Below, piece by piece: positions 1,884-24,819 of a stretch of 25,531 nucleotides of DNA (its first letter is position 1; every line of letters starts with the position of its first letter). Source of the stretch: a virus; IMG/VR virus record IMGVR_UViG_3300047369_000318, positions 1 to 25,531 of that record. One strand, given 5' to 3'. The notes beneath the pieces were generated by a model. That model saw nothing but the letters and a program-made list of their open reading frames with translations, was not told the origin of the DNA and searched no databases. Made by a program: the position numbers and the translations under genes.

Positions 1884-2249
1884 ATGGGACAAAATTCAAC
1901 AGAAGTAGCATATGGCTTTGGTCAGTTAGGCTCTGCTTTCAACGACGGCACTTCCGCTATGACGCCTCCTACTGGAAAAGTGTTTGTAGCTATAACAATG
2001 TTAACAGATGTAACTTTTGATTCATCTGGAGGTCTAAAAGCTGATAATGACATTGCTAACGGCTTAGAGTTTATCAACACTGAAGGCGCTGCTCACGACG
2101 CTGCGTTATCTCCTGATCTTGGAGAGTCTGGAACTGGTGGTATAGAAATAGACGTAAATAATGTCTTTCCAAAAGGTGTTACTATATACGGTAGATTCAC
2201 AGAGATCGATCCTGCGTCTGGCACGCTGATCGCTTACATAGGAGCATAA
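1884..2249 (+). CDS. Probable small virion protein, function unknown
   Basis: This 121-aa protein starts MGQNSTEVAYGFGQLGSAF, a beginning I associate with small conserved proteins of uncultured marine phages. The rest looks beta-rich (GKVFVAITMLTDVTF, GIEIDVNNVFPKGVTIYGRF), rich in Gly, Ala, Asp and Thr, with no signal peptide, membrane segment or cysteine. This composition suits a capsid-surface, decoration or fibre-base protein, but no function is established. The ATG at 1884 follows an A/T-rich spacer after the holin stop, with no Shine-Dalgarno box. The stop overlaps the LamG-like gene by 1 nt (TAATG), so the two are probably made together and may act together. Confidence 0.6.
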   Translation: MGQNSTEVAYGFGQLGSAFNDGTSAMTPPTGKVFVAITMLTDVTFDSSGGLKADNDIANGLEFINTEGAAHDAALSPDLGESGTGGIEIDVNNVFPKGVTIYGRFTEIDPASGTLIAYIGA

Positions 2250-3067
2250 TGCTAGGATTAGGTAATAGCATAACAGGTGGCGCTAGCGCAGAATCAGTTC
2301 TTGATCTATCTTCTAAAGTTTTTCATGTTTCTGGGTTTAACGTAACGTCTTCTCTTATAGGTGGTGAAAAACTAGTAAGTGCTATGGAAAACTTAGCTGA
2401 CGGTAGTAGTATAACTGTAGGACAATCTGTAGACAATAAAAAACCTATTCACGATATAGCTAATAAAGGAGTTCATTTTCCTTTTACTTCTGCTTCTGGT
2501 CAAGTAGATCAACTAGATCTTAGTAGTGCTATTATGCTAAGGGATGCTTTTACAGTATTTTTTGTATCAAAACAATCTACGCCTGACACCCTAAGCAAAG
2601 CTTATCAGTTTGTAACTGGAAGTTATACAGACAATAATAATAGATCTTCTATATTTTTGTTTACAGAAGAAGACGACGGTTCAGATCCTTATTTTAATAT
2701 AAAAGCAACTCAAGGCGGAACTAGTGATGAAATAGGTATAGAGCAATTTGACAACGGCGCGCCTTCAACTGTAAAAACTTTTATCTGCATAACTAAAGAC
2801 GCTGGAGTGAACGCTACTGTTAAAGTATATCAATCAAATTCTCATTCATTTCACACAGAAATTTCAGACACTGACTTTGACGCTAACGTAGATTTTATAA
2901 TAGATCAAATAGGTGGTTTTGAACCTTTTATAAATCCAAGTGGTGGTACTGATGTGCCACAAGGTAATATGTACCTTTACGAATTAGGAGTGTACAACGT
3001 AGCTTTAACAGAAGCACAAGTTAGAGAAATATCTAACGATATGATCTCTAAACATAACTTAGATTAA
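2249..3067 (+). CDS. LamG/concanavalin-like lectin protein, candidate adhesin
   Basis: This 272-aa protein looks all-beta, with strands such as AFTVFFVSKQST, SSIFLFTEEDD and TVKVYQSNSHSF. It ends with NMYLYELGVYNVALTEAQVR followed by a short helix to the C terminus. That ending (E-x-x-(I/V)-Y-N-x-A-L-(T/S)-x-x-(Q/E)-(V/I)) is characteristic of LamG/pentraxin-type jelly-roll domains. A central DDGSDPYFNIKATQ segment fits the sugar-binding face or a calcium site, but I cannot assign ligands. Such domains in phages often bind host polysaccharide, so a receptor-binding or virion surface role is likely. It overlaps the preceding gene by 1 nt. It is unusual in lying among lysis genes and far from the tail block. 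Confidence 0.6.
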   Translation: MLGLGNSITGGASAESVLDLSSKVFHVSGFNVTSSLIGGEKLVSAMENLADGSSITVGQSVDNKKPIHDIANKGVHFPFTSASGQVDQLDLSSAIMLRDAFTVFFVSKQSTPDTLSKAYQFVTGSYTDNNNRSSIFLFTEEDDGSDPYFNIKATQGGTSDEIGIEQFDNGAPSTVKTFICITKDAGVNATVKVYQSNSHSFHTEISDTDFDANVDFIIDQIGGFEPFINPSGGTDVPQGNMYLYELGVYNVALTEAQVREISNDMISKHNLD

Positions 3068-3381: not shown

Positions 3382-3583
3382 AATAACAATCGGTAAAGAC
3401 TACAAAATTGACGCCATGCACTATTCTGTTGGACAGGATGTGTATGGTGGTCATACTATTTGTGACATTATAGAGGAAGACGACAAGTACTCTATATACA
3501 TCAAGAAAAACAAAGATGTATTACCGTGGAAAGATTTTAATAAAAACATGGCTATATCTATTGAGTATAATTTAGAGTATTAG
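3362..3583 (+). CDS. Small conserved phage protein, function unknown
   Basis: The open frame extends upstream to 3320, but I prefer the ATG at 3362. It starts MSKLIRKITIGKDYK and overlaps the previous gene by only 20 nt, whereas the longer version adds an implausible hydrophobic leader read out of frame through the coiled-coil gene. The 73-aa product is probably beta-rich. It contains DYKIDAMHYSVGQDVYGG, then CDIIEEDDKYSIYIKK and a WKDFNK turn. I recall similar small proteins from marine phage contigs beside packaging genes, without a known function. Its TAG overlaps the GTG start of the next gene by 1 nt. Confidence 0.55.
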   Translation: MSKLIRKITIGKDYKIDAMHYSVGQDVYGGHTICDIIEEDDKYSIYIKKNKDVLPWKDFNKNMAISIEYNLEY

Positions 3584-4164
3584 TGAAGACACCATTTAAT
3601 TTTATCATTGAGCCTAAAGGCGGTAGATACAACAACACTACTAAAGTAGAGGGTAAAGATTTAATTTTAAACTCTGAAATACAAAACCACGAGTTTGTCA
3701 ATAGAGAAGCTGTAGTAAAAGCTGTTCCTACAGCATTTGATACTAAAATTAAAGTTGGTGATACTGTAATAGTACATCATAACGTGTTTAGAAGATGGTA
3801 CGACGCTAAAGGTAAAGAAAAAAACAGTAGAGCTTTTATTGACGAAACTACTTATGTGGTTAGTTTAGATCAAGTGTTTTTGTATAAGTCAAAAGATAAA
3901 TGGAAAGCTGTTGATGGGTTTTGCTTTGTAAAGCCTATTAAGCAAAGAGACAAGCTAGATCAAGAGATAGAGCAAAGCTGTGTTGGTATTGTAAAGTATA
4001 CAGACGGAGTTAATCGTATTGGAGAACTCGTAGGTTTCACGCCTTTCTCTACTTACGAGTTTATAATAGAAGGCCAAAAGCTTTATAGAGTCTATAATAA
4101 GTTTATTACAATTAAGTATGAATATCAAGGAGACGAAAAAGAGTATAATCCAAGCTGGGCATAG
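3583..4164 (+). CDS. Putative tandem GroES-like protein
   Basis: This 193-aa protein appears to contain two GroES-like barrels. In the first (about 4-101), FNFIIEPKGG resembles the first GroES strand, KDLILN the GGIILP-type loop, REAVVKAVP the GEVVAVGPG strand, and KVGDTVIVHHNVFRRW the VKVGDxVLFxKYAG strand. In the second (about 112-180), GFCFVKPIK restarts the pattern, VGIVKYTDG follows, and GELVGFTPFSTYEFIIEG plus KLYRVYNKFITIKY matches the C-terminal hairpin. Phage GroES proteins work with host GroEL in capsid folding. Between the VGD strand and its second half, the first unit carries a loop, DAKGKEKNSRAFIDETTY (74-91). The GTG start at 3583 overlaps the upstream stop by 1 nt; the gene overlaps the next by 47 nt. 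The GroES reading is pattern-based and needs structure prediction; an assembly protein of similar fold is the alternative. Confidence 0.5.
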   Translation: MKTPFNFIIEPKGGRYNNTTKVEGKDLILNSEIQNHEFVNREAVVKAVPTAFDTKIKVGDTVIVHHNVFRRWYDAKGKEKNSRAFIDETTYVVSLDQVFLYKSKDKWKAVDGFCFVKPIKQRDKLDQEIEQSCVGIVKYTDGVNRIGELVGFTPFSTYEFIIEGQKLYRVYNKFITIKYEYQGDEKEYNPSWA

Positions 4165-10271: not shown

Positions 10272-11738
10272 ATGGCAATTACACCCGGTGATAATTTGAA
10301 TAGCGTTCCTGCTTCACGAAAGCAAACGTTATCTACAAATTATTTAGACCTATCATCTGGCGATAACGCTGGTTGGGGTCAACAATACGTTCCAGATTTA
10401 ATGGAAAAAGAGGCTGAAGTTTTCGGCCCAAGAACAATTTCAGGCTTTCTAGCTAAAATAGGAGCTGAAGAGGCTATGACAGCTGATCAAGTTGTATGGT
10501 CTGAGCAAGGACGTTTGCACTTGTCTTACAAAGGTAAGTTAACAAATGACAACACTTTCTTAGTTCAAGCTGACATTGATGAAGCTAATTACACTCAAGC
10601 TGGTCTTGATACTGCTCACGGCGTTAGATTAAACGACACTGTTGTTGTTTCTAATGCTAATGGCGTATTCAAAGCTATGGTTACAGGCATCGCTACCAAC
10701 GACGTTTTAACACTATCTGCTTATGACGGCGTTGATATTGATCAGCTTAACACAGACAAGACTACTACTATTTTAGTCTATGGTTCTGAGTACGGAAAAG
10801 CTAGACGTTACCAAGCTGACAACGACGCTGCAAACGACGTTGATTCAAGAGGCGCTAACGAGCCACAGTTTCAAACTTTTACTAACAAGCCTATCATCAT
10901 GAAGGACTACTACGAGGTGTCTGGATCAGATGCGTCTCGTATCGGTTGGGTAGAAATTTCTACAGAAGCTGGACAGGGCGGTTACTTGTGGTACTTAAAA
11001 GCTGAGTCTGATACTCGTGCTCGTTTTAACGACTATGTTGAAATGTCTATGTTAGAGTCTGTTAAAGGCTCTGGTACTAACGGCGTTGATGACTACTTAG
11101 GTCATGCTAACGTAGGTACTCAAGGTTTATTCGATGCTATCGAAGATAGAGGTAACGTAACTTCAGGTATTACTGGTGTTAACGCTGCTACTGACTTAGC
11201 TGAATTTGACGCTATCTTAGCTGAATTTGACAAGCAAGGTGCTATTGAAGAAAACATGATGTTTGTTAACCGTGCTACTAGTTTAGCTATTGACGACATG
11301 TTAGCTTCTATGAACTCTTACGGTGCTGGTGGTACTTCTTACGGAGTATTCGACAACTCTGAGGATATGGCGTTGAACTTAGGTTTCTCTGGATTTAGAA
11401 GAGGTTCTTACGACTTCTATAAGTCTGACATGCGTTACTTAAACGATAAAGCTACACGTGGCGGTATCAATGATGCTGCAGGTTCTGGCGAAATTCGTGG
11501 GGTTATGATTCCTGCTGGTTCTTCATCTGTATATGATCAAACTGTTGGTGCTTCTATCAAGCGTCCGTTCTTACACGTACGTTACAGAGCTTCACAAACT
11601 GATGATCGTAGAATGAAGACTTGGACTACTGGTTCGGTTGGAGCTGCTACATCTGCTTTAGATGCAATGCAACTACACTTCTTAACTGAAAGATGTTTAG
11701 TTACTCAAGGTGCTAACAACTTCATGTTATTGAAGTAA
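10272..11738 (+). CDS. Major capsid protein
   Basis: This 488-aa protein lies after portal and scaffold and has the features of a major head protein. It has a long N-arm and E-loop-like beta region (GVRLNDTVVVSNANGVFKAM, about 118-137). A conserved motif, YYEVSGSDASRIGWVEIS (about 212-229), follows, and then mixed alpha/beta text ending in FLTERCLVTQGANNFMLL. The size and the VSGSDAS motif match capsid proteins of crAss-like and marine Bacteroidota phages, which have the HK97 fold. Codon use differs from its neighbours: arginine is often CGT (AGA dominates elsewhere), and GCT, GGT, AAC and GAC are frequent, as expected for the most expressed gene. The leader ends ATTTATTATG. A strong intrinsic terminator follows the stop. 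Confidence 0.85.
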   Translation: MAITPGDNLNSVPASRKQTLSTNYLDLSSGDNAGWGQQYVPDLMEKEAEVFGPRTISGFLAKIGAEEAMTADQVVWSEQGRLHLSYKGKLTNDNTFLVQADIDEANYTQAGLDTAHGVRLNDTVVVSNANGVFKAMVTGIATNDVLTLSAYDGVDIDQLNTDKTTTILVYGSEYGKARRYQADNDAANDVDSRGANEPQFQTFTNKPIIMKDYYEVSGSDASRIGWVEISTEAGQGGYLWYLKAESDTRARFNDYVEMSMLESVKGSGTNGVDDYLGHANVGTQGLFDAIEDRGNVTSGITGVNAATDLAEFDAILAEFDKQGAIEENMMFVNRATSLAIDDMLASMNSYGAGGTSYGVFDNSEDMALNLGFSGFRRGSYDFYKSDMRYLNDKATRGGINDAAGSGEIRGVMIPAGSSSVYDQTVGASIKRPFLHVRYRASQTDDRRMKTWTTGSVGAATSALDAMQLHFLTERCLVTQGANNFMLLK

Positions 11739-11747
11739 ATTAATTAT

Positions 11748-11778
11748 GGTCGGGGCTTCGGCCCCGATCTTTTTTTTT
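11748..11778 (+). terminator. Intrinsic terminator after the major capsid gene
   Basis: A 9-bp stem pairs 11748-11756 (GGTCGGGGC) with 11761-11769 (GCCCCGATC), containing one G-U wobble. The loop is TTCG closed by C-G, the exceptionally stable cUUCGg tetraloop. A run of nine T follows (11770-11778). It begins 9 nt after the capsid stop and would end or attenuate the capsid transcript, so the 274-aa gene would be reached only by read-through or from a new start. Confidence 0.93.
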
Positions 11779-11785
11779 AATTTTT

Positions 11786-11800
11786 ATTATATTATATTAT
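11786..11800 (+). repeat. (ATTAT)x3 repeat forming the leader of the 274-aa gene
   Basis: Three perfect ATTAT units run from 11786 to 11800. The final AT supplies the first two bases of the ATG at 11799. Together with the (AATTA)x5 leader at 3076 this is the second pentamer tract abutting a start codon in the window. It contains no Shine-Dalgarno-like sequence. Confidence 0.6.
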
Positions 11801-12623
11801 GGCAAAAAAACAAACAAAAAAGGTTGAAGTAGCTCCTGAAGTAAAAGCTACAAATGAAATGGTTGAGGTTGTTGTTGAAAAGCATACGCCTAAAAAACCA
11901 AGCTGGGAAATAAAAGATAGAGTTTACAATTTAAAAGGCAATAAAAAACCTATCTCTAGAATGATAAAGTCTGCTGGAGTGTACTACTTTGACGCGGAAA
12001 AAGGTTACGAAAGAGAGTTAAAGTATTGTCAAAATCAAAAAACGCCTTTTGTTGACGAAATGATAGGTGATCAAAGATTAGAGCATATTATTTTTAGAAA
12101 CGGATCTTTATTTGTGCCTAAAGAAAAAACTACTCTACAAAAACTTTTATCTTTATATCACCCAGATAAAAACAAGCTATATACGGAGTATGAGCCTGTA
12201 AGAGAAGCTGCTAGTGAAATAGAAATATTAGAAATGGAAGCAGACGCAATATTAATGGCTAGACAAATAGATATTGATATGGCTGAAGCTATAATGCGAG
12301 TAGAAAAAGGATCTGAAGTGTCTCAGATGAGTTCTAAGGAGCTTAAAAGAGATTTACTACTATTTGCTCGCAACAACCCTGTCTTGTTCTTAGAGTTAGC
12401 GGCTGACGACAATGTTCAGCTTAGAAACTTTGGTATTAAAGCTGTAGAAGAAGGAATTATTAAACTATCAGCTGATCAACGTAATTTTATATGGGGATCT
12501 AATGATAGAAAAATAATGACTGTACCGTTTGATGAACACCCATACACCGCTCTTGCGCATTGGTTTAAAACTGATGAAGGTATGGAGATATATTCAAACA
12601 TTGAAAAGCGATTTAACGCGTAA
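11799..12623 (+). CDS. Phage structural-region protein of unknown function
   Basis: This 274-aa protein has a Lys-rich N-terminal tail (MAKKQTKKVEVAPEVK), a compact middle (ISRMIKSAGVYYFDAEKGYE, then HIIFRNGSLFVPKEK) and a helical second half. I recall proteins of this layout between capsid and connector genes in marine Bacteroidota phages, without a known function. It is probably a minor head protein or assembly factor. The sequence YHPDKNK resembles the J-domain signature but lacks the surrounding helices (see rejected items). It is isolated by a terminator upstream and a UUCG hairpin downstream, which suggests its level is set separately from the capsid protein. No signal peptide or membrane segment is seen. 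Confidence 0.6.
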   Translation: MAKKQTKKVEVAPEVKATNEMVEVVVEKHTPKKPSWEIKDRVYNLKGNKKPISRMIKSAGVYYFDAEKGYERELKYCQNQKTPFVDEMIGDQRLEHIIFRNGSLFVPKEKTTLQKLLSLYHPDKNKLYTEYEPVREAASEIEILEMEADAILMARQIDIDMAEAIMRVEKGSEVSQMSSKELKRDLLLFARNNPVLFLELAADDNVQLRNFGIKAVEEGIIKLSADQRNFIWGSNDRKIMTVPFDEHPYTALAHWFKTDEGMEIYSNIEKRFNA

Positions 12624-12629
12624 TCATCC

Positions 12630-12671
12630 TATAGTAGAGCAGCCACTCTTCGGGGTGGTTGCTTAACTATA
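12630..12671 (+). terminator. Long UUCG hairpin after the 274-aa gene, without a U-tract
   Basis: A 10-bp stem with two G-U wobbles pairs 12639-12648 (GCAGCCACTC) with 12653-12662 (GGGTGGTTGC) around a TTCG loop closed by C-G. It extends outward through A-T and G-U pairs and an A/A mismatch to six further pairs (TATAGT 12630-12635 with ACTATA 12666-12671). No T-run follows; the next bases are A-rich. It may be a weak terminator, a transcript-stabilising end, or a processing signal between the 274-aa and 236-aa genes. Confidence 0.6.
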
Positions 12672-12684
12672 AAAATAAAACATA

Positions 12685-13395
12685 ATGGCAATAAGTGTAG
12701 ACACAGTATATCAAACAGTATTGGCGCTAGCCAACAAGGAACAAAGAGGTTATATAACGCCTCAAGAATTTAACTTATTTGCTAACCAAGCTCAAGTAGA
12801 AATATTTGAGCAATACTTTTACGATCTTAACCAATTTAAAAGAGGTAGAGGTAGTGACGATAACGAGTCTGACATGGTTTCTTTGCTAGAAGACAAAATA
12901 GCTATATTTAGCACGTCAGTTCCGCTATCGAACGAAGATTTAGAAGCAGGTAACTCAAAGTTCACGTTACCTAGTAATTTTTACAGATTAACAGATGTTA
13001 GAACAGGAAGCTCTCATAGTCATGTTCAAATAAACAAACTTTCAAGAAAAGACTTTTGGGAATACAATCAAGGCCCACTTACCAAAGGGACTTTAAGTAG
13101 ACCTAACTGCTATCTTCATCAAGATGGAGTAATTTGGGTAAATCCTGATGGAATAGAAAAAATATATGTAAACTACATTAGAAAATTACACCCGGTAAGC
13201 TGGGGTTATTTGCTTCAGGGCAACAGCGCTTTATGGAACCCTACTACAAGCAACGATTTTGAACTGCATCCTTCAGAGCAAAATAAGCTTGTGTTAAAAA
13301 TACTAAAGTTAGCAGGCGTATCTATAAAAGATGCTGAAGTATCTCAACTAGCTGCTCAACAAGAAGTAACTAACTTACAACAACAAAAATCTTAA
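12685..13395 (+). CDS. Head-tail connector/adaptor protein
   Basis: This 236-aa protein begins with a helical module containing TVYQTVLALANKEQRGYITP, then EFNLFANQAQVEIFEQYFYD. A beta-rich middle has FTLPSNFYRLTDVRTG and WVNPDGIEKIYVNYIRK. A helical end follows with QNKLVLKILKLAGVSI. The NKEQRGYITPQEFN signature is one I associate with the first connector (ring or head-closure) proteins of crAss-like and marine Bacteroidota podoviruses. These bind under the portal and continue the DNA channel toward the tail. Position supports this: it follows capsid genes and precedes a second connector and the muzzle-like protein. The start follows an A-rich spacer after the long hairpin; the next gene begins 4 nt after its stop. 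Confidence 0.68.
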   Translation: MAISVDTVYQTVLALANKEQRGYITPQEFNLFANQAQVEIFEQYFYDLNQFKRGRGSDDNESDMVSLLEDKIAIFSTSVPLSNEDLEAGNSKFTLPSNFYRLTDVRTGSSHSHVQINKLSRKDFWEYNQGPLTKGTLSRPNCYLHQDGVIWVNPDGIEKIYVNYIRKLHPVSWGYLLQGNSALWNPTTSNDFELHPSEQNKLVLKILKLAGVSIKDAEVSQLAAQQEVTNLQQQKS

Positions 13396-13399
13396 TTAA

Positions 13400-15013
13400 A
13401 TGGCGAACGAGTATTACAACTTAAAAAAAGGTCACGACAAAGAGTACTACAATAGTACTATGAAAGAAAACAATATTGACCAAAGTCCTTTTGGTGAATA
13501 TCAGTTTGTATCGCTAGACGATATTATCTCTCAATTTATGGCTGTTTACGTTGGTGATGAAAAAATAATAAATAAAGTAAGTAGATCTGATGTGGGTTTT
13601 TGGGCTCAAAGAGCTTTAGCTGAGTTATCTTTTGATACGCTAAAATCTATAAAGTCACAGCAAATAAACGTTCCACCTTCGCTAGTAATGATTTTACCTG
13701 CAGACTATGTTAACTATACTCATATTAGCTGGGTAGATGATAAAGGAATAAAATATCCTATATATAAAACTACGCAAACTTCAAATCCTTTTCAAATAGC
13801 TCAAGAAGAAGAAGGCGTATACTTCTTTGGAGACAACTCACAGCTAGTTCAAAACGGTGATCTTGACTACAACTTTACAGATAACTTTAGCACTACTATA
13901 GCTATTTTATCAAAGTTAGATAATCTAGGCGGTAAATTCCAAACACTTCTTGAAAGTCGTACCGGCTGGTTTGGTAGTAGAGTTTTTAATAGCGCGGTTA
14001 ACAATAACGTAGAGTTTAGAAACGCACCTCACAAAACAGGTACTACCTACCACGGATCTGCTCAGGCTTTTTGGCAAGAAATAGATGTTACCGGAATGAC
14101 AACTTTAGAGATTTCTGCAAACGCAACATCAATAGAATCAGGCACGGGAACAAGCTACAGGGAAGATAAAGACACCGGAGAGACTATAACAGAAACATTT
14201 ACTCACTCAGCAAGTACAGTAAGGTTTGGTTTAAGTACAATAGCTCCAGACGCAGATAACATAAGAGATGTTGCCGTAGGAAGTGCTTTAGCTGCTAACC
14301 ACTCATCAGCAGAGTACTTTGACTTAGGTTACGTAGAGTGGACAGCTGGAGAGTCTGGAGCAAAAAGTATAACTGGCGTTGATGTTAGCAACGTTTCAGG
14401 AACAGTTTACGTTTTAGCTAGCGGTCAAGCTAACTGGCCTTCAAGCAACGCGAGTAACAAGCCTGACCCTTACATGGAAGTTACTTCTACTATAGATGAG
14501 CTGTCTGTTAGATCAGATGCAAATGTAAATAATTTAAAAAGAGAAAATAGATTTGAATCTTCTACTTGGACAAAGTTTAAAGGATCGGGTAGTACTGAGG
14601 CCGTTAACGACAGCACGACAGACGTTGATGATTTTCGTATAAACGCCGCGGGTCAAAGATATGGGCTAGAACCTTCAGCTGCTCAAAACAATGGATCTTT
14701 CTATATAGATGAAGAATTAGGTAGAATACACTTTAGCTCTAATATTTCTGGAAAAGATGTAATATTAGATTACATAAGCGATAGTCTTGGCACTTGGTCT
14801 GAAATGAAAGTTCACAAGTTTGCAGAAGAAGCAATGTACAGGTCAATAACGCATGGAGTGTTATCTACTAAATCAAATATTCCAGAGTACATAGTTCAAC
14901 GAGCTAAAAAAGAAAAGTTTGCAGCTACTCGACAAGCTAAGTTAAGACTATCAAATATAAAGATTAGCGATTTAACGCGTGTTTTAAGAGGTAAGTCTAA
15001 ACAAATAAAATAA
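13400..15013 (+). CDS. Head-tail connector protein with inserted beta domain
   Basis: This 537-aa protein has two conserved-looking core parts. The N-terminal core (about 30-135) contains FVSLDDIISQFMAVYVGDEK and FWAQRALAELSFDT. The C-terminal core (about 375-537) contains QRYGLEPSAAQNNGSFYID, GRIHFSSNISGKDVILDYIS, a helical end and a basic tail. Both are patterns I know from second-layer connector proteins of Bacteroidota phages. Between them, roughly residues 145-372, lies a Thr/Ser/Gly-rich beta segment (FWQEIDVTGMTTLEISANAT, GTVYVLASGQANW) resembling a jelly-roll carbohydrate-binding or decoration domain. The connector role comes from context; the domain would project from the neck. It lies 4 nt after the 236-aa gene and 6 nt before the large tail gene. 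Confidence 0.62.
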   Translation: MANEYYNLKKGHDKEYYNSTMKENNIDQSPFGEYQFVSLDDIISQFMAVYVGDEKIINKVSRSDVGFWAQRALAELSFDTLKSIKSQQINVPPSLVMILPADYVNYTHISWVDDKGIKYPIYKTTQTSNPFQIAQEEEGVYFFGDNSQLVQNGDLDYNFTDNFSTTIAILSKLDNLGGKFQTLLESRTGWFGSRVFNSAVNNNVEFRNAPHKTGTTYHGSAQAFWQEIDVTGMTTLEISANATSIESGTGTSYREDKDTGETITETFTHSASTVRFGLSTIAPDADNIRDVAVGSALAANHSSAEYFDLGYVEWTAGESGAKSITGVDVSNVSGTVYVLASGQANWPSSNASNKPDPYMEVTSTIDELSVRSDANVNNLKRENRFESSTWTKFKGSGSTEAVNDSTTDVDDFRINAAGQRYGLEPSAAQNNGSFYIDEELGRIHFSSNISGKDVILDYISDSLGTWSEMKVHKFAEEAMYRSITHGVLSTKSNIPEYIVQRAKKEKFAATRQAKLRLSNIKISDLTRVLRGKSKQIK

Positions 15014-15019
15014 TAGTTT

Positions 15020-18000
15020 ATGCCAGAGATTAAAAATACTTTTGTTCGAGGTAAAATGAATAAAGACCTTGACGAAAGGTTAATACCTAATGGAGAGTAT
15101 AGAGAAGCGTTAAACGTAGAGATTTCTACTTCAGAAGATTCTAACGTTGGAACTGTTCAAAATATTATTGGCAACAAAAGAATTGATAAGCTTTTTAATG
15201 GTAACTTCGCTATTAGCTCTAACGACTTTACATGTATAGGGTCTATTGCTGATGAAAAAGAAAATAAACTTTATTGGTTTATAACATCTGTAGACAAAGA
15301 TATAATATTAGAGTGGGACGAAGAAAATCAATATTCATCTTTAGTTTTTGTAGATACTAAGAAAAAAGTTAAAGGTGCTACTTTAAAATTTCCTTCTAAA
15401 ACTATAACAGGTATAAATATAGTTGATGAGTTTTTAATGTGGACAGACGGCGTTAATGAGCCAAAAAAAATAAATATAAAAAACTGCAAGTTAGGAACAA
15501 CTTCAGTAAATCAACACACTTTACTTTACGTTAATGGTACTTCTGCTGGAGATATTGAAGAGGAGCATATAACTGTAATTAAAAAAAGACCATCTACTGC
15601 TCCTTTTATAAAAATTAATCACACTGATTCAGTAGAAGAAAAAAGTTTATTTGAAAACGTATTTCCAAGATTTACCTACAGGTACAAGTATGCTGACGGT
15701 GAATACTCGGCTTTTGGTCCTTTTACTGCGCCTATTATTTCTGCAAAATACTCTAAAGCTTATAATTCTTCTAATTTCTACGGTATAAAAGAAGGTTATA
15801 ACACGGCGATGTATAACACTATAAAGTCTCTTGAAATCATGGACTTCGTTCCTCATGACATACCTAAAGATGTCGTTCAAGTTGACATACTATATAAGCA
15901 AGATGATTCTAACGTTGTATATTCTATAGCCAAAATAAAAAATACAGATCCAGAGTTTAGCGCTAAAGGATCAGGACTAGGTGTTCAGCTACTTCAGCCT
16001 ATTGATAATATAGATAGGCACAGAAATCTAGGTAAGTATGTTTTAAATACAGAAAACATTTACGCTGCAGTTCCAGAAAACCAGTTGTTAAGAGTATATG
16101 ATAATGTTCCAAGGAAAGCTATAGCTCAAGAAATAGTTGGCAACAGGTTAGTCTATGCTAATTACACTCAAGGTTACGATATTGATCAAGACGTTAAGGT
16201 TTATGCTGGCTACGAAAAAAGAAACGTTAAAGAATCTTTTGAGACAGGAGGAATACAATCTGTTAAGTCTCAGAGAGACTATCAAGTTGGCGTAGTTTTT
16301 GGAGATGAGTATGGAAGAGAAACACCTGTAATCACGTCATCAGAAGGTTCTATTAAAATTCCTTTTACTGACGACGATATAGTAAACGGTGTGGTTTCAA
16401 CTAAAGCTGTAAATATAAAAGCTAAAATGTCAAGCTACGCTCCAGATTGGGCTAGCTACTTTAAGTTTTACGTTAAAGAAACTTCAGGTGAATATTACAA
16501 CGCTTTAATGACTGCCGCGTTTATACCTGGCTCTGACACTGAGTTTGACAACAAAGAAGAACACCTGTGGCTAGCGTTTAACTCGTCTGACATAAACAAA
16601 ATACAAGAAGACTCTTACTTAGTATTAAAAAGAACAATTGGCGCAAATGGTGGTACTATAAACTACGAGAATAAATACAAAGTAATAGATGTTAAAGCAG
16701 AAGCTCCAGAGTCTATAGCTTACAATTACTTTGACTTATGTAGCCAATTAAACGATAACCTTCAGCTTAATGATGGTGGCACAGATGGTTCTATAATGCA
16801 AGAACATCAATTTAGGATTGATCAAACCGTAGACAAAATAAAAATAGATGTAGATTCTTACTTAGCGCTAGGGCACTCTCCTATACCATCTTCTGATGGT
16901 GAAAACGCTTCTACAGAAACATCTAACAATATATACATATCTTGGAAACTTGAAGACGATAACGATGCGACTTTTACTCACTCTAAAAAGTATAAGGTAA
17001 GTAGCGTTAGCACTGTATCTGGAGCTTATGTTTTAGGCTTAGCCAACAAGATAACACCTGGCGACGCTAAGCTTGCCTCCGGAGCCACTAATAAAGCTAT
17101 AAATACAGCTACAGGTTCTTTAGATGAAAATCTAACGTTTCTAGTAGAGCGTAAAGATAAAAGAGAAGGAGAAGATTTTTCTGGTAAGTTTTTTGTTAAA
17201 ATAAAAATAGACGAGTTAATACTTCAAGCTTTAGTTAATAAGCAAGTTGAAGTTCATAATAATAAGTTTATTTCTTCTTCAGCAAACGTGTTGTGGCTTG
17301 CTTCAATTCAAGATTCTTCTAACGAGCTTGATGGAGTTTTAAACACTAATCCTTACGCAAATACTCCAGACATTACTGTTCAAGAACTTATAGATGCAGC
17401 AGCTGATGAGCTAGCAGACGCCTCAAGTCATTGGTCAGATATTTTAGGTGAAACAGGACCTACGTTTTTTATAGACAACATGTATTTGACGGACTCTAAC
17501 CCTTCCGATTCTTATTACGCTAAAGAAGCAGGTCAAGGTTGGAGAGGTAATCCCGTGTCATATCCAAAAGCGGTTTGGAACAACACTACGGATATACCTT
17601 GGTCTCCAGACGTTATTAGTACAGAGCAACAGTATGACGAAGATAATTTTTCTGCTAGCAACGTAATGAATGGTCTGCCTGGAATAGTTACCACTAACAC
17701 AAGCTACATAGAAGGAGGATCTAAACAGTGGAAACAAGATAGCGTATTTGACGTTAGCTTTGAAGATTCTTATGGAGAAGAAACAGGTAAAGTCTTTATG
17801 CATATTTCTTTTTTAGCTCCTGGAAAAAACTTGCACTCTTCAAACTGGACAGATAATAGTGGGCTAGCAACTTCTACAGCCACTGGACTTCAAAGTCTTG
17901 CTAAAGACATGCAGGGAATATGGGGAGGAGGAGTTTTTATAAAAGAAGGGGTTTATGTAGAGTTTGAAGGTAGTTACGATCAAACAGACTCTGCTATTGG

Positions 18001-21000
18001 TATGCCAGCACCTGGCCCGGGGATAGGCAAAGGATATGATTTAAACTATAGAGAACTGCACGAAAGACAGTGGGACCCAACTTTCAACGTTAATGGTGAT
18101 CCAGATGGCGTTATAAAAGAGTTTATTGAAAATATAAAAATTGGTTCTAAGTTTAAGTTTTCTGATGACACTACTAACGACCTTTACACTATACTTAATG
18201 TTAACGTAAAGCGCATATACAATCACACTTCTTGGAGAACCAGACATCAACGTGTAGCTGGCTTGCCTCACCTCGACGGTAAAAGTGTTGAAGAAAAAGC
18301 TTTAGCTTGGGCGGCCAATACAACTAACGTGGCCAATGGAGACGCTTTAAAAGCTACTATCGAAGCTTTTGGTAAAGCGAACAATAGAAGAGTATGTTAC
18401 ATTATAGAGCTAGATAAAGATCCAACAGGCGCTTCGTCAAGCTTTAACCCAGTGCAAGGCGGCAGTGGCTTTCCAGACGCTGAAACGCCTACTACTATAG
18501 AATTTGTTGACGAAAAAACGCAAGCATTATCTGCTTTAAAAATAAATACACCAGCTGTTTTTGAAACAAAGCCTAAACAGTCTGCTGACTTAAACATATT
18601 TTATGAAGCTAGTCAAGCTATTCCTTTGCTATTAGATGTTGACTCTGCTGAAATGTTTTGTCCAAGAGGTTGTAGAGTAGAGTTTCCAAATTTACCAGCA
18701 GCTAGACATGGTAAAAAGCAAATAACACAAAACGTGTACGTTAGGCAGTGGAACTTAGTTGGAGATCAACTTCACTTTTTAGTAAGACATGAAAACATTG
18801 CTGAAACATTTGGGTTTAACTACTTAAACGCTAATCAAGACATAATAGATTACTCTAATCAAGAAGTAAGATTTTACAGACCCGACGGAGGTTACACTAC
18901 AGCTATAATAGGTCAAAGTTACACAGATCAACAAAATGAATTTGACGCTGGGTATAGGGTTGCGTTTAACGTGTCTAAGTTTGTTGACACTAGCGTAGAC
19001 TTTGGTTTGTCTTGGAACAACTGTATATCTTTTGGTAATGGTATTGAATCAAACAGAATAAGAGACGATTTTAACGCACCGTTTATTTTAAATGGAGCTA
19101 GAGCCTCTTCTACAATAGAAGAACCTTATTCTGAAGAAAATAGAAAGTACGGCTTAATATACTCTGGTATATACAACTCAACTAACGGTGTAAACAACTT
19201 AAATCAGTTTATACAAGCAGAGAAAATAACTAAAGATGTTAACCCTACTTATGGCAGTATACAAAAGCTTTATACAAGAGACTCTGACTTAGTAGCGTTT
19301 TGCGAAGATAAAGTGTTAAGAATATTAGCAAATAAAGACGCTATATTTAATGCTGATGGTAATCCTCAGCTTGTAGCTACTGAAAATGTTTTAGGTCAAG
19401 TTAATCCTTTTGTAGGTGATTTTGGTATATCTAAAAACCCTGAGTCTTTTGCTAAAGAATCTTATAGAGCATACTTTGCTGACAAACAAAGAAGAGCTAT
19501 ACTGCGGCTTTCAATGGACGGGTTAACACCTATTTCAGACGCTGGCATGAAAGACTTTTTTAGAGACAACATGCTTAATGCCGGTAAAATACTAGGTACT
19601 TATGATGAGTACAAGAAGCAATATAATGTAACTATATTAAACCCTTCGTTTAACAACGTTCTAGCTAACTCTTACATATCTGAAGGAGTAGACGTAACAC
19701 CTGTTACTTCGACTAATGAAATAGTTGAAAACGCTGGGTTAAACGGCGGTGTTGACTATAACTTTGGAGGTGCTGTTAGCGATTATTACTCTCAGTACCA
19801 GTACTTAAGTAACACTGGTTTTAAAGCTGAAGCAACAATAACATATTTTCCAGCTATAAACGCTGAGTTTTATCAGCAGTTTGTTCAAGGTCAAGAAGCT
19901 GTAACTGCCGTAGCCGGTCAAGTAGGAATAGAAGGTCAAGACGCTGCTTTTCCAGAGTTTTTTACAAACTCCGGTAGCACTGGTGAAAGAATGTTTTCAT
20001 ATAGACAAAATATAGACGGAAATCCTTTTTTGTCAAGTGGAAGCGGCTATAACAGCGATTTTGACGGTCAGTTTCAAAGATTTTACAGTGACACTTATTC
20101 TCAATTTATATCTGCAGATTCTACAAACAATCCAACAGGTTTGTTTTTAGTAGGTGAAACAGGTGTAGAGCAATCTTGGGGAGGTTTACTTGATTTTAAT
20201 TTTAATCGTATATTTTGGAGTGACGAAGCGGACTATTACCTTGTTTCAACGGGGTTTGGCGACCGATTCTTTTATTATTACCCTGGTATCAACTTTACTT
20301 ATGATAATCCGGATGAATCAGTTTTAGGGGGTATTTTACTTCCTGGAAACATTATATCAGGAGACACTATACCTAACGATTACGTAGCAGCCCCTGTTTT
20401 AGCGGCTAATCCTACGGCTACTAACATGACTATATTTAATGGCGAAGAAATAAAAATAGTAGTATATTATGGTACTAATGTTGCAAGTTACAGTGATAAC
20501 GAGCCGCAAATTCAAATAAGATTAAGAGATGGAGTTACAGGTAACTTTGTTGGCAATTCTATATTAAGAGATTCCAGCGATATACCAAGTGGTACTCCTG
20601 CTGGTTTTGAAACAGCTACAAACACAAACCCTTACACAACGTTTATGTACCCCGAGCAAACTGCGGGTGATTCTACGGGTCAAGTAGTTCTTGGTTACCA
20701 AGCTAACAACGCTGTTAGTACTACAGTTCCATTAGCAGAAAACTCAGCTGGAATAGATACAAACTCTGTTTCTGTTCAATACAAGTTTGTTCAATCTATG
20801 GAGCCAACTGTAGTCGTAGATAATCTACAAATAGATATTAGAGTAGATTTAAACAATATTGACGACACTTTAGTTATAAACAGAGTAGAAATATATAAAA
20901 CATCTGCTATTCAAGACCTTGGGCAAAGCTTTGTACTAGGCCAAACGCAAATAGATCCTGTAACAGGCCAGGCATTTATACAAGCTGCAGAAGCAGTGCC

Positions 21001-23260
21001 TGGTGTTTATGGAAATCCTAACTCAGGCAATGGCAATCAATTAGCTTTCACCGCTGTAGACTATGCTATCGATGGTGGCGGATGGACTTTTAATATAGGT
21101 AGTTTAGGAACTATAAACCAGTTTTATGGAGCTGAAGATTACTACGGCTCAATAAACTTGCCGACGCTTTCAGAGTCCGTATCGTTAAATGACGGAACAA
21201 CAGCTCAATGGTATATTGGAAATGACAACGGCGTTTCTTCACACACAATGGGTGTAGCAAACACAGCTATAACAGAGTTTGATGGAGTTACTTTAGACCA
21301 AGGTAACGTATTACAAGGTACAGACGAAATAACTACAGCTCAAAATAAAGTTTATATTATGCATCCTGGCGGCGATACTAGTAGCGGCATAATTACTCAA
21401 GACATAACAAGCGGCACCGCTTTAGTTCACGGCAACTGGTATTTAATAGATGTAGAGTACACGCCTTCTTTAAACCCAGGATTTGAATTAAATAATTATG
21501 GTTACGGTATATATATACAGCATGTTTTTCAACCGTTTACTGCCAGTACTTCTAGTAATACAAGCGGAGTTCAACACTTGGATTCTTCTATACCTGGAGC
21601 ATTAACGCCACTGCCAAATGGCTACATAGGTAGAGCAAACCACAACATGGATGGTCTTAGATTAGTTCCTATGGAAACAGGGGAATACGGTGGAGGTACA
21701 CACGCTTTTAGAGGTGTTTTTCAGTTTGATGAAGATTCTCAAATGGGAACACACAACGCTGTGCGAATACAGTTTTATAGTATAGAACTCATAATAAATA
21801 GAATAAACTTCATAGATATAACTTTACCTCAAAACAACAGTAGTATACCTGAAGGTTGGTTAGCTAACACGGTGCCTAACACTCAACCTTTACACGCTCT
21901 TCAAGAAAATAGAGCGTACTACGCTAACGGTGGTTATAACTGGAATGTCCCTGCTAGCTTTGTAGACGCTGAGCTCAACACTTTTAAACATATTTTCAAT
22001 GCAGATGAAGTAGACTTTTTTGAACAGTCTTATACTTTTTCTTTTACGTTTGACAACATAGGCCCTCTTTCTGCCGATCAATTTAGCGGAAGCTTTAAAG
22101 CTGGATTTGTAAGCAACATTAACGAGTCAGGGGAGTCTGTACGATTTATTATAGATAATATTAACGAACCAGGACTGTACACTTTTTCAGTAGACTTTTC
22201 TAATAATAGTTTTATCACTGTAAACACTCCCGAAGGATTTACTGGAGACGCTAGTTTAACTGTTGACGCTAGTGCAACAGTAAGCAACTCAAATAGATTG
22301 TTCTTTTATCCTATAGGAGCAACAGGAGGTGTAGGTAAGTTAGAAAACGCTTCTGTACAGTCAAACACAAATTTATTTACAGGCGGATCAATAGAGTCTT
22401 GGTCTTTTGGAGGTTTTAATGCCTCTGAATCTCCTGAAGTTTTCTTTGAAAACGGTCAAATAGAGTTTGATACAGTGCAAAGTACTAACGCGTACGTATC
22501 TCAAGCTTTAGCAGAAGAAATACCTAGTGGACAACAGTATAATTTAGATATAGATTATAGTATAACGAGTGGTTTTATAGACGTTTATTACTATAACACC
22601 GAAGGTCAAGGCTTTACAGTTAGAATAGGTGATGACGATGCTGAAGTAGATTCTACGAACTTTAACAACACGCTTACAATTGGCGATGAAGTTCTAACCG
22701 AAGGATCTGCTGATTTAGTTAACACTTTAGTTTTAAAGCCTAGCCCAAATACGCAAGCTTTAATAAGCAGTATTAAATTTAAAAGAGTAAACGCTAATGT
22801 GGCGGCCGTTCAAACTCTTTCGTATAGCGAAGACGTTAAAGGATGGGTGAGTTTTAAGTCTTTTATTCCTGAGTCAGGATTAAGCTTATCTAAAAACTAC
22901 TACACTCTTAAAGACGGCAAGCTTTACAAGCATTATCATGCTGAAGCAAGTATAAACACTTTTTATAATCAAAACCCCGAGCCTTCTAGCGTTGTAGCTG
23001 TTTTTAATGACTCTCCTTCTATAGTTAAAAACTTTAAAACAATTAACTACGAAGGAACTAGCGGTTGGAGTTTAGATTATATATATACTAACATAGAGTC
23101 TGGCTCAATAAATAGTTTTGTTGAAAAAGAAAACAAATATTTTAACTATATAAAAGGTAAGTTTCAAACTAATGATGTTATTGACACCTCAGGATTTAAC
23201 GTTCAAGGATTAGGCATCGCATCATTAGTAACATCAAGCAGTGAAGAAGCTCCAGAGTAA
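15020..23260 (+). CDS. Giant muzzle/tail-like structural protein
   Basis: At 2746 aa this is the largest product here. The N terminus, GKMNKDLDERLIPNGEYREA (about 11-30) followed by TSEDSNVGTVQNIIGNKRI, is a strong signature of a structural family of Bacteroidota and marine podoviruses that includes the crAss-like tail muzzle proteins. Further family segments are KLYWFITSVDKDIILEWD, RDYQVGVVFGDEYGRETPV (about 419-437), TRDSDLVAFCEDKVLRILAN (about 1418) and ILRLSMDGLTPISDAG. The C-terminal family block starts YSEDVKGWVSFKSFIPESG (about 2602). Between about 1545 and 2595 lies an inserted run of Gly/Thr/Asn/Ser-rich beta domains, including a CBM-like one near 2452-2590 (SWSFGGF, VFFENGQIEF, QQYNLDIDYSI). 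It likely forms the tail nozzle and presents host-binding modules. There is no membrane segment. Confidence 0.75.
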   Translation: MPEIKNTFVRGKMNKDLDERLIPNGEYREALNVEISTSEDSNVGTVQNIIGNKRIDKLFNGNFAISSNDFTCIGSIADEKENKLYWFITSVDKDIILEWDEENQYSSLVFVDTKKKVKGATLKFPSKTITGINIVDEFLMWTDGVNEPKKINIKNCKLGTTSVNQHTLLYVNGTSAGDIEEEHITVIKKRPSTAPFIKINHTDSVEEKSLFENVFPRFTYRYKYADGEYSAFGPFTAPIISAKYSKAYNSSNFYGIKEGYNTAMYNTIKSLEIMDFVPHDIPKDVVQVDILYKQDDSNVVYSIAKIKNTDPEFSAKGSGLGVQLLQPIDNIDRHRNLGKYVLNTENIYAAVPENQLLRVYDNVPRKAIAQEIVGNRLVYANYTQGYDIDQDVKVYAGYEKRNVKESFETGGIQSVKSQRDYQVGVVFGDEYGRETPVITSSEGSIKIPFTDDDIVNGVVSTKAVNIKAKMSSYAPDWASYFKFYVKETSGEYYNALMTAAFIPGSDTEFDNKEEHLWLAFNSSDINKIQEDSYLVLKRTIGANGGTINYENKYKVIDVKAEAPESIAYNYFDLCSQLNDNLQLNDGGTDGSIMQEHQFRIDQTVDKIKIDVDSYLALGHSPIPSSDGENASTETSNNIYISWKLEDDNDATFTHSKKYKVSSVSTVSGAYVLGLANKITPGDAKLASGATNKAINTATGSLDENLTFLVERKDKREGEDFSGKFFVKIKIDELILQALVNKQVEVHNNKFISSSANVLWLASIQDSSNELDGVLNTNPYANTPDITVQELIDAAADELADASSHWSDILGETGPTFFIDNMYLTDSNPSDSYYAKEAGQGWRGNPVSYPKAVWNNTTDIPWSPDVISTEQQYDEDNFSASNVMNGLPGIVTTNTSYIEGGSKQWKQDSVFDVSFEDSYGEETGKVFMHISFLAPGKNLHSSNWTDNSGLATSTATGLQSLAKDMQGIWGGGVFIKEGVYVEFEGSYDQTDSAIGMPAPGPGIGKGYDLNYRELHERQWDPTFNVNGDPDGVIKEFIENIKIGSKFKFSDDTTNDLYTILNVNVKRIYNHTSWRTRHQRVAGLPHLDGKSVEEKALAWAANTTNVANGDALKATIEAFGKANNRRVCYIIELDKDPTGASSSFNPVQGGSGFPDAETPTTIEFVDEKTQALSALKINTPAVFETKPKQSADLNIFYEASQAIPLLLDVDSAEMFCPRGCRVEFPNLPAARHGKKQITQNVYVRQWNLVGDQLHFLVRHENIAETFGFNYLNANQDIIDYSNQEVRFYRPDGGYTTAIIGQSYTDQQNEFDAGYRVAFNVSKFVDTSVDFGLSWNNCISFGNGIESNRIRDDFNAPFILNGARASSTIEEPYSEENRKYGLIYSGIYNSTNGVNNLNQFIQAEKITKDVNPTYGSIQKLYTRDSDLVAFCEDKVLRILANKDAIFNADGNPQLVATENVLGQVNPFVGDFGISKNPESFAKESYRAYFADKQRRAILRLSMDGLTPISDAGMKDFFRDNMLNAGKILGTYDEYKKQYNVTILNPSFNNVLANSYISEGVDVTPVTSTNEIVENAGLNGGVDYNFGGAVSDYYSQYQYLSNTGFKAEATITYFPAINAEFYQQFVQGQEAVTAVAGQVGIEGQDAAFPEFFTNSGSTGERMFSYRQNIDGNPFLSSGSGYNSDFDGQFQRFYSDTYSQFISADSTNNPTGLFLVGETGVEQSWGGLLDFNFNRIFWSDEADYYLVSTGFGDRFFYYYPGINFTYDNPDESVLGGILLPGNIISGDTIPNDYVAAPVLAANPTATNMTIFNGEEIKIVVYYGTNVASYSDNEPQIQIRLRDGVTGNFVGNSILRDSSDIPSGTPAGFETATNTNPYTTFMYPEQTAGDSTGQVVLGYQANNAVSTTVPLAENSAGIDTNSVSVQYKFVQSMEPTVVVDNLQIDIRVDLNNIDDTLVINRVEIYKTSAIQDLGQSFVLGQTQIDPVTGQAFIQAAEAVPGVYGNPNSGNGNQLAFTAVDYAIDGGGWTFNIGSLGTINQFYGAEDYYGSINLPTLSESVSLNDGTTAQWYIGNDNGVSSHTMGVANTAITEFDGVTLDQGNVLQGTDEITTAQNKVYIMHPGGDTSSGIITQDITSGTALVHGNWYLIDVEYTPSLNPGFELNNYGYGIYIQHVFQPFTASTSSNTSGVQHLDSSIPGALTPLPNGYIGRANHNMDGLRLVPMETGEYGGGTHAFRGVFQFDEDSQMGTHNAVRIQFYSIELIINRINFIDITLPQNNSSIPEGWLANTVPNTQPLHALQENRAYYANGGYNWNVPASFVDAELNTFKHIFNADEVDFFEQSYTFSFTFDNIGPLSADQFSGSFKAGFVSNINESGESVRFIIDNINEPGLYTFSVDFSNNSFITVNTPEGFTGDASLTVDASATVSNSNRLFFYPIGATGGVGKLENASVQSNTNLFTGGSIESWSFGGFNASESPEVFFENGQIEFDTVQSTNAYVSQALAEEIPSGQQYNLDIDYSITSGFIDVYYYNTEGQGFTVRIGDDDAEVDSTNFNNTLTIGDEVLTEGSADLVNTLVLKPSPNTQALISSIKFKRVNANVAAVQTLSYSEDVKGWVSFKSFIPESGLSLSKNYYTLKDGKLYKHYHAEASINTFYNQNPEPSSVVAVFNDSPSIVKNFKTINYEGTSGWSLDYIYTNIESGSINSFVEKENKYFNYIKGKFQTNDVIDTSGFNVQGLGIASLVTSSSEEAPE
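19653..22805 (+). other. Large beta-rich insertion within the muzzle-like gene
   Basis: Approximate limits: residues about 1545-2595 of the 2746-aa protein, between the conserved YDEYKKQYNVTI block and the YSEDVKGWVSF block, which I remember as close together in related proteins. The segment is Asn/Ser/Thr/Gly-rich and reads as several beta domains. The last (about 2452-2590) resembles a carbohydrate-binding jelly roll. A second candidate (about 2330-2440) contains GLYTFSVDFSNNSFITVNTP. Coordinates are estimates. Confidence 0.5.
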
Positions 23261-23270
23261 AAGATAAGTT

Positions 23271-24482
23271 ATGGATAAGAAAATAATCACAATACTGAAC
23301 ATTGACATTTCTGACATATTAGAGACAGGTGCTGTTCGTCAGTTTGAAGTTAGAGGAGATGTTGGCTCTAAATTTCAAATAATAGTTTCTAATAACTCTA
23401 GGCAGTTTTATAACTTTTCTACAAATACATTTACTGAAAATTTTACTATAAACTCTGCTTCTAACATAACAATGAGTTCTACTATATATAGTGGTTTTAT
23501 AAAGTTTCCTGCTGTTGCTGGGGCAAGCTACAACGTCTTGCTAATACCAGATACTGATACTACTACAACTAGTGGCGGCAGCGTAATAAACAAAAGAATA
23601 AATCAACTAGGTAATACTACAGTAACATTTGCTTTAATAGACACTACAAATCCTGGTAAGTATAAAACTTTTCCTAGTAGCGTAACGTCTACAGGTTCTC
23701 CTGCTAGTACAACTTCTACACCTGTTTCAATAGATTGGACAGTAGAAAACGTAGACACTGACGCTGATGGTTTTGGGTTTTTTACTGTTATTGATTCTAG
23801 AGCTTACAGCGACAAATCGTTTAAAACTATAAAAACACATACTGTAAACGGATCAACTAGCAATTCTTTAACTGTTGTTTTAGACGACATTTCTGATATT
23901 ACTTTGGGATCTGTTCTTGTTGGCGTAAGTAGCGGCTCTTTAAATGGAACGCCTGTTATAAAACTTATAGATACAGCTACTAAGCAGGTTACTTTAAGCG
24001 GCACGTCAGGCCAATCATTTGCAGATGGTATAACTCTAACGTTTCACACAGTTGCTGGTGATATACAAGTCGCGACAGGATTAGGTTTTACGTTAAGTAC
24101 ACTTGGCCTTCAAGCTATTACTTCACCTACAACTACCGTAAGAGGTTCTCATGTTAACGCAACCACTATAAATTTAAACGGCACTTATCACATTTCAGGA
24201 GGTAACGAAGTAAGGTACGTAGGCACAAACGTAGATAATTCTTCTACAAACACAGTAACAAGCGTTAGCGCTAGCGCAACACAAGGCTCGATGATAGTAA
24301 CTCATCCGCAAAACTTTTCAGGAGGAGAAACTCTTACGTTTAGACCTGTTGACGAAAGAACAGTTACTTTTTCAGACACGTCTAGATTTACAGGAACTGT
24401 AACTATAGATCAATATCCTTCAGAAGATGTAACAGTATACTTAGATCTAGCTACTTTAATAGCTCAAGGATCAGCATCGTAA
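23271..24482 (+). CDS. Beta-rich virion or fibre protein, function unknown
   Basis: This 403-aa protein is almost entirely beta-rich and Thr/Ser-rich (VEVRG-like, TTVTFALIDTTNPG, DRTVTFSDTSRFTGTVTID-like segments). Residues about 198-258 carry a segment of the form ITLGSVLVGVSSGSLNGTP, then a KQVTLSGTSGQSFADGITL strand. Its pattern (I-x-x-G-x-V-x-G ... V-T-L-S ... D-G-x-x-L-T-F) is common in phage fibre and baseplate-type proteins. A related copy may lie at about 327-357 (TVTSVSASATQGSMIVTH, GGETLTF). There are no cysteines and no membrane segment. It sits 10 nt after the giant gene and probably belongs to the tail or neck. The short spacers on both sides suggest one operon. I do not recognise a specific family. 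Confidence 0.6.
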   Translation: MDKKIITILNIDISDILETGAVRQFEVRGDVGSKFQIIVSNNSRQFYNFSTNTFTENFTINSASNITMSSTIYSGFIKFPAVAGASYNVLLIPDTDTTTTSGGSVINKRINQLGNTTVTFALIDTTNPGKYKTFPSSVTSTGSPASTTSTPVSIDWTVENVDTDADGFGFFTVIDSRAYSDKSFKTIKTHTVNGSTSNSLTVVLDDISDITLGSVLVGVSSGSLNGTPVIKLIDTATKQVTLSGTSGQSFADGITLTFHTVAGDIQVATGLGFTLSTLGLQAITSPTTTVRGSHVNATTINLNGTYHISGGNEVRYVGTNVDNSSTNTVTSVSASATQGSMIVTHPQNFSGGETLTFRPVDERTVTFSDTSRFTGTVTIDQYPSEDVTVYLDLATLIAQGSAS

Positions 24483-24492
24483 TATATACACT

Positions 24493-24819
24493 ATGGTAAG
24501 AATAAGAATAAGTACAACAAATCAAAACGTATCAGTTCAAGTAGGTGATCATGCTTACTATTCTACTGAAGACGCAGTAGGCAACTTAAACGCGCCTACA
24601 CACATAGGTAAAATAATAAGTATTGCTCCGAGCTATATAGACGTAGAAGGCTCAGGTAATGGCGTGTCTAATCAAGACTACATAATGTTTAAGAAAAATA
24701 ACCAAGTAAACAAGTCTGGAATAAAAGGATATTATTCTGAATTTAAGTTTACAACAAACTCTACTGCTCCTCAAGAGTTGTTTTCAATAGGGTCTGAAGT
24801 GGTTGAAAGCAGTAAATAA
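24493..24819 (+). CDS. Small beta-rich virion-region protein
   Basis: This 108-aa protein begins MVRIRISTTNQNVSVQVGDH and continues with HIGKIISIAPSYIDVEGSGN and DYIMFKKNNQVNKSGIKGYY, giving a compact all-beta impression. The sequence VGDHAYYST and later VEG/SGNG turns suggest an SH3- or OB-like barrel. I recall similar short proteins between tail genes and internal virion proteins in marine phages, with no known role. A small neck, plug or tail-tip component is possible. The start lies 10 nt after the previous stop in an A/T-rich context without Shine-Dalgarno. The next gene begins 41 nt downstream after the leader ending ATAATATTATG. Confidence 0.55.
   Translation: MVRIRISTTNQNVSVQVGDHAYYSTEDAVGNLNAPTHIGKIISIAPSYIDVEGSGNGVSNQDYIMFKKNNQVNKSGIKGYYSEFKFTTNSTAPQELFSIGSEVVESSK

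Follow-up and report, generated by a model that had tools for sequence, protein, structure and literature searches.

A domain array with carbohydrate-binding-module-like folds inserted in the tail muzzle protein of a crAss-related phage, with a probable role in adsorption

The muzzle (tail nozzle) protein encoded by a 25,531-base virus record (hereafter the window, by which we mean the whole stretch of DNA analysed) carries a block of about 1,050 residues that is an insertion; it characterises one clade, in which a few short forms are nested. We consider it likely, with a probability of roughly two in three, that this segment is an array of domains set in a hairpin of the muzzle propeller, which binds polysaccharide on the host surface during adsorption. 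The hairpin would lie between two strands of the β-propeller, near the C terminus of the protein, and if the muzzle is hexameric like gp44 of PhicrAss001, six presumably surface-exposed copies of the array would stand beside the nozzle of each virion, where they would probably contact the host capsule, an exopolysaccharide or an outer-membrane glycan. The array is likely to be nested, with an outer jelly roll closing it, a second one inside, and further domains inside the second, an arrangement that would let the inner domains be exchanged while frame and nozzle stay intact. To our knowledge, few receptors or binding proteins have been established for crAss-related marine phages; a segment that evolves fast at a fixed position of a conserved protein could serve as a marker of host-range variation for those phages that are uncultured.

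The window is a fragment that holds a structural cluster of the short-tailed phage type, including genes for terminase, portal, capsid, ring-type protein and muzzle (features in Table 1). The muzzle product matches PHROG 14478 (E 2.7e-129) and PHROG 18548 (E 7.5e-21), exceeds the curated cut-off of 27 bits for Pfam crAss_MUZ_C with 32.3 bits, and is encoded directly downstream of ring/adaptor-type genes in the virion cluster, as in crAss-type neighbourhoods; by sequence it can be assigned to the crAss-type/T7-nozzle-like muzzle family. Its named relatives are from phages of Flavobacteriia (Cellulophaga, Flavobacterium, Tenacibaculum and Maribacter). Among the neighbours, ORF 12685-13395 matches PHROG 14543 and, weakly, the SU10 adaptor family (E 0.0026, under the Pfam cut-off), and ORF 13400-15013, directly before the muzzle gene, matches PHROG 13977. 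The latter encodes 537 residues here, compared with 365-371 in loci L004-L006 and about 270-290 in phi13:2 and Panino, and therefore has an extra segment of its own. Farther upstream, ORF 3583-4164 encodes a GroES-like co-chaperonin (PHROG 13932, E 2e-19), and the 144-residue product of ORF 1028-1462 contains an HExxH-type motif, HEMRH, with a sub-threshold match to peptidase M90 (E 0.06). The muzzle gene is broken by a frame change, which may be an error or a genuine split, in two relatives, namely Maribacter phage Panino (L009:8766-9902), at the conserved YGSIQKL, and L007 (L007:9998-14702).

Table 1. Features of the muzzle gene and the two ORFs that follow it (nucleotide positions in the window)
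Feature	Position	Strand	Basis or remark
Muzzle (tail nozzle) protein, 2,746 aa	15020..23260	+	single frame without interruption
N-terminal muzzle core, residues 1-1540	15020..19639	+	BLAST: L004-L006, elemovirus, phi13:2, Panino
Conserved block 1, ending in ILGTYDEYKKQYNVTI, the strand that precedes the insertion	19007..19639	+	alignment A1
Insertion, residues ~1541-2597	19640..22810	+	absent, shortened or unrelated in 136/159 loci
Two putative jelly-roll 'first strand' motifs in succession, NNVLANSYISEG and NEIVENAGLNGG	19640..19735	+	motif pair and model 1
Inner region 1, residues ~1573-1790, most variable	19736..20389	+	low model confidence, pLDDT mostly 37-75
Predicted inner beta domain 2, residues ~1791-1970	20390..20929	+	model 2 pLDDT mostly 67-93, mostly beta
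Predicted inner domain 3, residues ~2015-2270	21062..21829	+	model 2 residues 225-480
CBM-like beta-sandwich (putative body of nested domain B), residues ~2271-2451	21830..22372	+	2w68, Z 9.9
CBM-like beta-sandwich (putative body of outer domain A), residues ~2459-2594	22394..22801	+	4d0q, Z 13.6
Conserved C-terminal muzzle block, TLSYSEDVKGWVSF onwards	22811..23257	+	alignment A2
Separate beta-rich ORF, 403 aa, between muzzle and 108-aa ORF	23271..24482	+	homologue counts
108-aa ORF, homologue of a domain that some relatives carry fused to the muzzle C terminus	24493..24819	+	PHROG 18548

The motifs QYNVTI and YSEDVKGWVSF start at residues 1534 and 2602 (nt 19619 and nt 22823, respectively), and about 1,055 residues separate the QYNVTI block from the TLSYSEDVKGWVSF block, which starts at about residue 2600. 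The initial annotation had placed the segment at 19653-22805 (residues about 1545-2595); the bounds in Table 1 are slightly wider. Lysine and arginine make up 2.9% of the insertion against 12.0% of the 200 residues before it, its computed pI is 4.05 versus 5.63, and it is rich in asparagine, serine, threonine and glycine (36% together) with no cysteine at all. More than 40 independent contigs carry the insert as an open frame, which excludes a chimeric assembly.

Relatives were gathered from IMG/VR with profiles of both flanking blocks, and the distance between the blocks was then measured. These lie less than 100 residues apart in 129 of the 159 loci placed in the tree, mostly at 0-50 residues, 109-508 residues apart in 7 and 929-1,375 in 23, proportions that describe the neighbourhood of the window and are no family-wide census, because the scans return the closest relatives first. 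Window residues 1330-1549 and 2599-2732 match neighbouring stretches of a single protein of 1,566 residues in L004, where 3 residues separate the blocks; the separation is 17 residues in an elemovirus (L010) and 9 in L013, a close relative with 77% identity in block 1, whose junction reads YSKQYNITLT-KHAEDATSE-TLSFSEDAKGW. In PhicrAss001 gp44, profile comparison joins both flanks at VYFTYKD-HCLCYSE (residues ~1193-1206), which by alignment forms a tight β-hairpin. The proximity of the blocks in most loci, together with this hairpin, identifies the block as an insertion, and bears out the earlier expectation that the two family blocks belong close together. The initial annotation had also allowed that a segment shared by most homologues would be a core part of the family; most of them lack it, so that this objection falls, and yet nearly all members of the window's own clade possess it.

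The flanks themselves are conserved: alignment A1 of block 1 has 35 invariant columns across 8 sequences, and the A2 profile of the C-terminal block matches gp44 residues 1202-1292 with a conditional E of 3.3e-15. In the published structure, gp44 forms a hexamer and comprises a seven-bladed propeller, two Ig-like domains and a crass domain (PMC10172136), and its IG2/crass part ends near residue 1021 (PMC10172136). Since gp44 residues ~1193-1206 follow this boundary, the insertion site maps by sequence alignment to the propeller part of the muzzle, after the crass domain. Judging from the strand order, it would correspond to the B-C loop of a propeller blade.

A further scan, with the insert as query, brought the distinct long forms to 47 in a second tree. 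The long inserts are mutual homologues, and a profile search across all loci and seven related records found the insert at the muzzle site only, which rules out a module translocated from elsewhere in the genome; a tblastn search of cultured phages with the window insert gave no match. A tree built from the flanking blocks groups the long forms in one part and needs 5-6 changes, of which 3-4 are forced by well-supported branches. One might suppose that the long form is ancestral and that the short forms reflect repeated losses of a core domain, in which case there was no insertion. The nesting of short-form L013 among the long forms L119, L122 and L124 with a support of 97 does indicate that the insert was lost or replaced at least there, and three further short-form relatives in the long clade (L016, L100 and L110) are likewise without any insert. 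However, the junction is short in the outgroups (elemovirus, phi38:1, Panino and PhicrAss001), and this, along with the clustering of the long form, makes an ancestral long form very improbable.

The acquired segment shares its site with other sequences. Five loci (L068, L039, L047, L049 and L076) carry there inserts of 109-365 residues that are unrelated by sequence, and the cultured Cellulophaga phages phi13:2, phi18:3, phi19:3 and phi46:3 have a 505-residue, Ig-containing insert at the same hairpin. Hence, the site has been used repeatedly. In contrast, a more sensitive profile search placed the inserts of L027 and L030 in the same family as that of the window. The Cellulophaga insert differs from the latter in its length, in containing a bacterial Ig domain (Pfam Big_9, E 4.1e-21 for the phi13:2 type) and in having no detectable homology to it; the muzzle gene of these phages is, moreover, broken in two after the insert, and in phi18:3 both products of the split gene were annotated from virion MS/MS proteomics. 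As for likeness, the tip region is exchanged at this same hairpin: the four muzzles are ~99% identical except in the last ~133 residues of the insert, which occur as two alleles with 57% identity. With cultured phages whose muzzles differ strongly only at the insert tip, a link between insert and host is directly testable.

At the sequence level, the insert has no convincing match in Pfam or among PDB sequences, and no CBM family in Pfam is detected at E 0.1 (21 members) or at E 0.5 (window insert). Structural models were more informative. Model 1 (AlphaFold2, 46 sequences, residues 1500-2640; mean pLDDT 68.6, pTM 0.42) and model 2 of the inner part (residues 1791-2459; mean pLDDT 69.3, pTM 0.46) are both of medium confidence, and the first is essentially all-beta, in keeping with the beta-rich domains foreseen by the initial annotation. 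Its best match is the hyaluronan-binding module 4d0q (Z 13.6, rmsd 3.0, 145 residues aligned); further matches at Z 10-13 include a Klebsiella phage tailspike, over its C-terminal part, as well as CBM16, CBM4, CBM61 and CBM29 (Z 10-12.5 for these four). In model 2, residues 2271-2451 match the sialic-acid-binding domain 2w68 (Z 9.9, rmsd 3.5, 142 aligned) and also CBM16 and CBM4 (Z 8.8-9.5). For the inner domains, legume lectins and the evolved-Dit module 5ly8 of phage J-1 are among the Foldseek matches (the model range was not printed). Carbohydrate-binding modules predominate among all structural matches, and the parts of the insert that could be matched are thus predicted to resemble such modules or lectins in fold, in agreement with the earlier suggestion that at least one domain is CBM-like.

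The models further suggest how these domains are arranged. The CBM rows on model 1 span from model residue ~43 (window ~1542) to ~1095, and we read this as an outer jelly roll with its first strand at the start of the insert and its body at the end. On model 2, the alignments to CBM chains set in about 10-15 residues into the chain, as expected if the first strand of the domain lies outside the modelled piece. The motifs NNVLANSYISEG and NEIVENAGLNGG would be the first strands of two nested domains; of 51 related inserts, 25 have the pair in their first 85 residues, as against 15 of 2,040 background windows. Additionally, the deletion forms retain both ends: L186 and L189 lack profile positions 62-599, and the L030 insert keeps positions 4-63 and 851-1058 with the middle gone. 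The alignment ranges, the paired start motifs and the deletion forms together favour a nested array, and the insert domains are probably placed one inside another, as far as these incomplete models of medium confidence reach. Multi-domain VIA-align rows, among them CBM22, extend over inner domain 3, which is possibly, if tentatively, lectin-like. Structural matches barely cover inner domain 2, and no fold was recognised for residues 1573-1970 among the matches to the two models.

Some of the Foldseek matches are PL7 alginate lyases and multi-domain glycosidases, from which one could argue that the array is enzymatic, a depolymerase or glycosidase, and no binder. However, the glycosidase matches align over accessory binding modules, no Pfam enzyme family scores above its cut-off, and no acidic or histidine residue inside the insert is invariant across 46 homologues. 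We consider an enzymatic array very improbable.

Comparisons between close relatives reveal how rapidly the array changes. Compared with L002, the muzzle of the window is 99.5% identical over residues 1330-1545, with a dN/dS of 0.02, while insert residues 1546-1730 show 66% amino acid identity (dN/dS 0.54) and residues 1731-2100 show 70% (0.42). The dN/dS of the insert exceeds that of the 600 residues upstream in 13 of 13 pairs and in 8 of 8 sub-clades, and of all large segments of the muzzle it is the insert that varies most between close relatives, a comparison that the initial annotation had proposed. More drastic differences are seen between L094 and L096, with cores 95% identical and insert columns ~100-600 only 14-36% identical, amounting to about 450 replaced columns, and between L119 and L122, where another block differs (columns 700-1000, at 27-40%). 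Whole insert domains are replaced between near-identical phages. Such exchange is not unique to the insert, since the capsid-to-ring genes (10272-13395) form a second recombinant block, with 59-79% identity to L002 between flanking genes at 91-99%. Relative to L001, amino acid identity is lowest in the insert and in ORF 23271-24482 (90% each). As regards a diversity-generating retroelement as a possible source of variation, the substitutions between this pair are not adenine-specific, and no RVT_1 was found in five related records, which may themselves be incomplete.

These patterns bear on the possibility that the array is a structural or protective decoration, in which the jelly rolls would stiffen the nozzle or extend its collar without binding anything, and the fast evolution would stem from relaxed constraint on exposed loops. 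CBM-like jelly rolls also occur in purely structural roles. The dN/dS of the insert is below 1 in every pair, so its fast evolution may represent relaxed constraint, and the nested short forms dispense with the insert altogether. However, passive decoration predicts neither the exchange of whole inner domains between phages with 94-95% identical cores nor the unrelated domains, with a swapped tip, at the same site in cultured phages, and we regard it as unlikely. Binding of a host glycan by exchangeable domains remains our preferred reading.

It had also been suggested that such an array would explain the absence of a separate tail fibre. We find no support for this part of the proposal, since the window is only a fragment, of 25.5 kb, and a fibre-like ORF (L222:7504-9270; weak match to a PHROG tail fibre subunit, E 6.6e-6) is present in L193/G001, a long-form relative of 57 kb, where it sits outside the region homologous to the window. 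Recognition may accordingly lie elsewhere, and the array, which the initial annotation proposed as a possible main determinant of host range, may or may not act on it. The same relative has an upstream ORF (L220:4761-5675) with a weak Laminin_G_3 match (E 0.0013), whose position corresponds to window ORF 2249-3067 (272 residues, no family match); owing to this correspondence, the product of the latter may be a lectin-like virion protein.

The region downstream of the muzzle gene also differs between long and short forms. A homologue of ORF 23271-24482 is present in all but one of 46 long-form loci (45) and in 29 of 98 short-form loci; ORF 24493-24819 matches the end of PHROG 18548 (E 7.9e-7), and its domain is part of the muzzle, by fusion, in about 30 short-form loci. 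Furthermore, C-terminal extensions of 250-1,400 residues occur in about 25 short-form muzzles (L031, L065, L084, L159 and others) and in none of 46 long forms; they are possibly an alternative place for binding domains. A functional coupling of the insert with ORF 23271-24482 and a mutual exclusion with C-terminal extensions are strong in raw counts, but given the clade structure these come down to only 3 independent pairs on supported branches, none of them decisive.

Two elements of this picture are known already, namely binding modules inserted in a conserved tail-tip protein and variation in the length of crAss muzzles. In the papers searched, mostly open-access ones, neither the propeller site as a recurrent insertion slot nor a nested array of such size is described. 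As a tentative generalization, to which we give somewhat less than even credence, the propeller hairpin could be a general slot for interchangeable host-binding modules in crAss-related phages, an 'evolved muzzle'. The module seen here would then consist of nested jelly rolls, with the first loop of each outer one taking up the next, so that the inner binding domains could be swapped and the nozzle left undisturbed.

Among known systems, the closest by homology is gp44 of PhicrAss001 (Crassvirales). Muzzle length in its family varies through insertions in the crass and IG2 regions, which can alter surface properties (PMC10172136), whereas the window insertion lies in the propeller hairpin, where gp44 has none. 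The functional parallel is the evolved Dit of lactococcal skunaviruses and Lactobacillus phage J-1, in which CBM domains are inserted in a conserved tail-tip protein, in some relatives and not in others (PMC10688798, PMC6669499). Evolved Dit modules bind their host cells (PMC6669499), and cloning such a Dit restored both infection of, and adsorption to, lactococci that bear exopolysaccharide (PMC10688798). The resemblance is at the level of fold only, with the J-1 module among the inner-domain matches; the protein receiving the domains is here the muzzle of a short-tailed crAss-related phage and no Dit, and the insert, of about 1,050 residues, is apparently nested. The role in adsorption, shown for evolved Dit, is proposed by analogy for the insert of the window.
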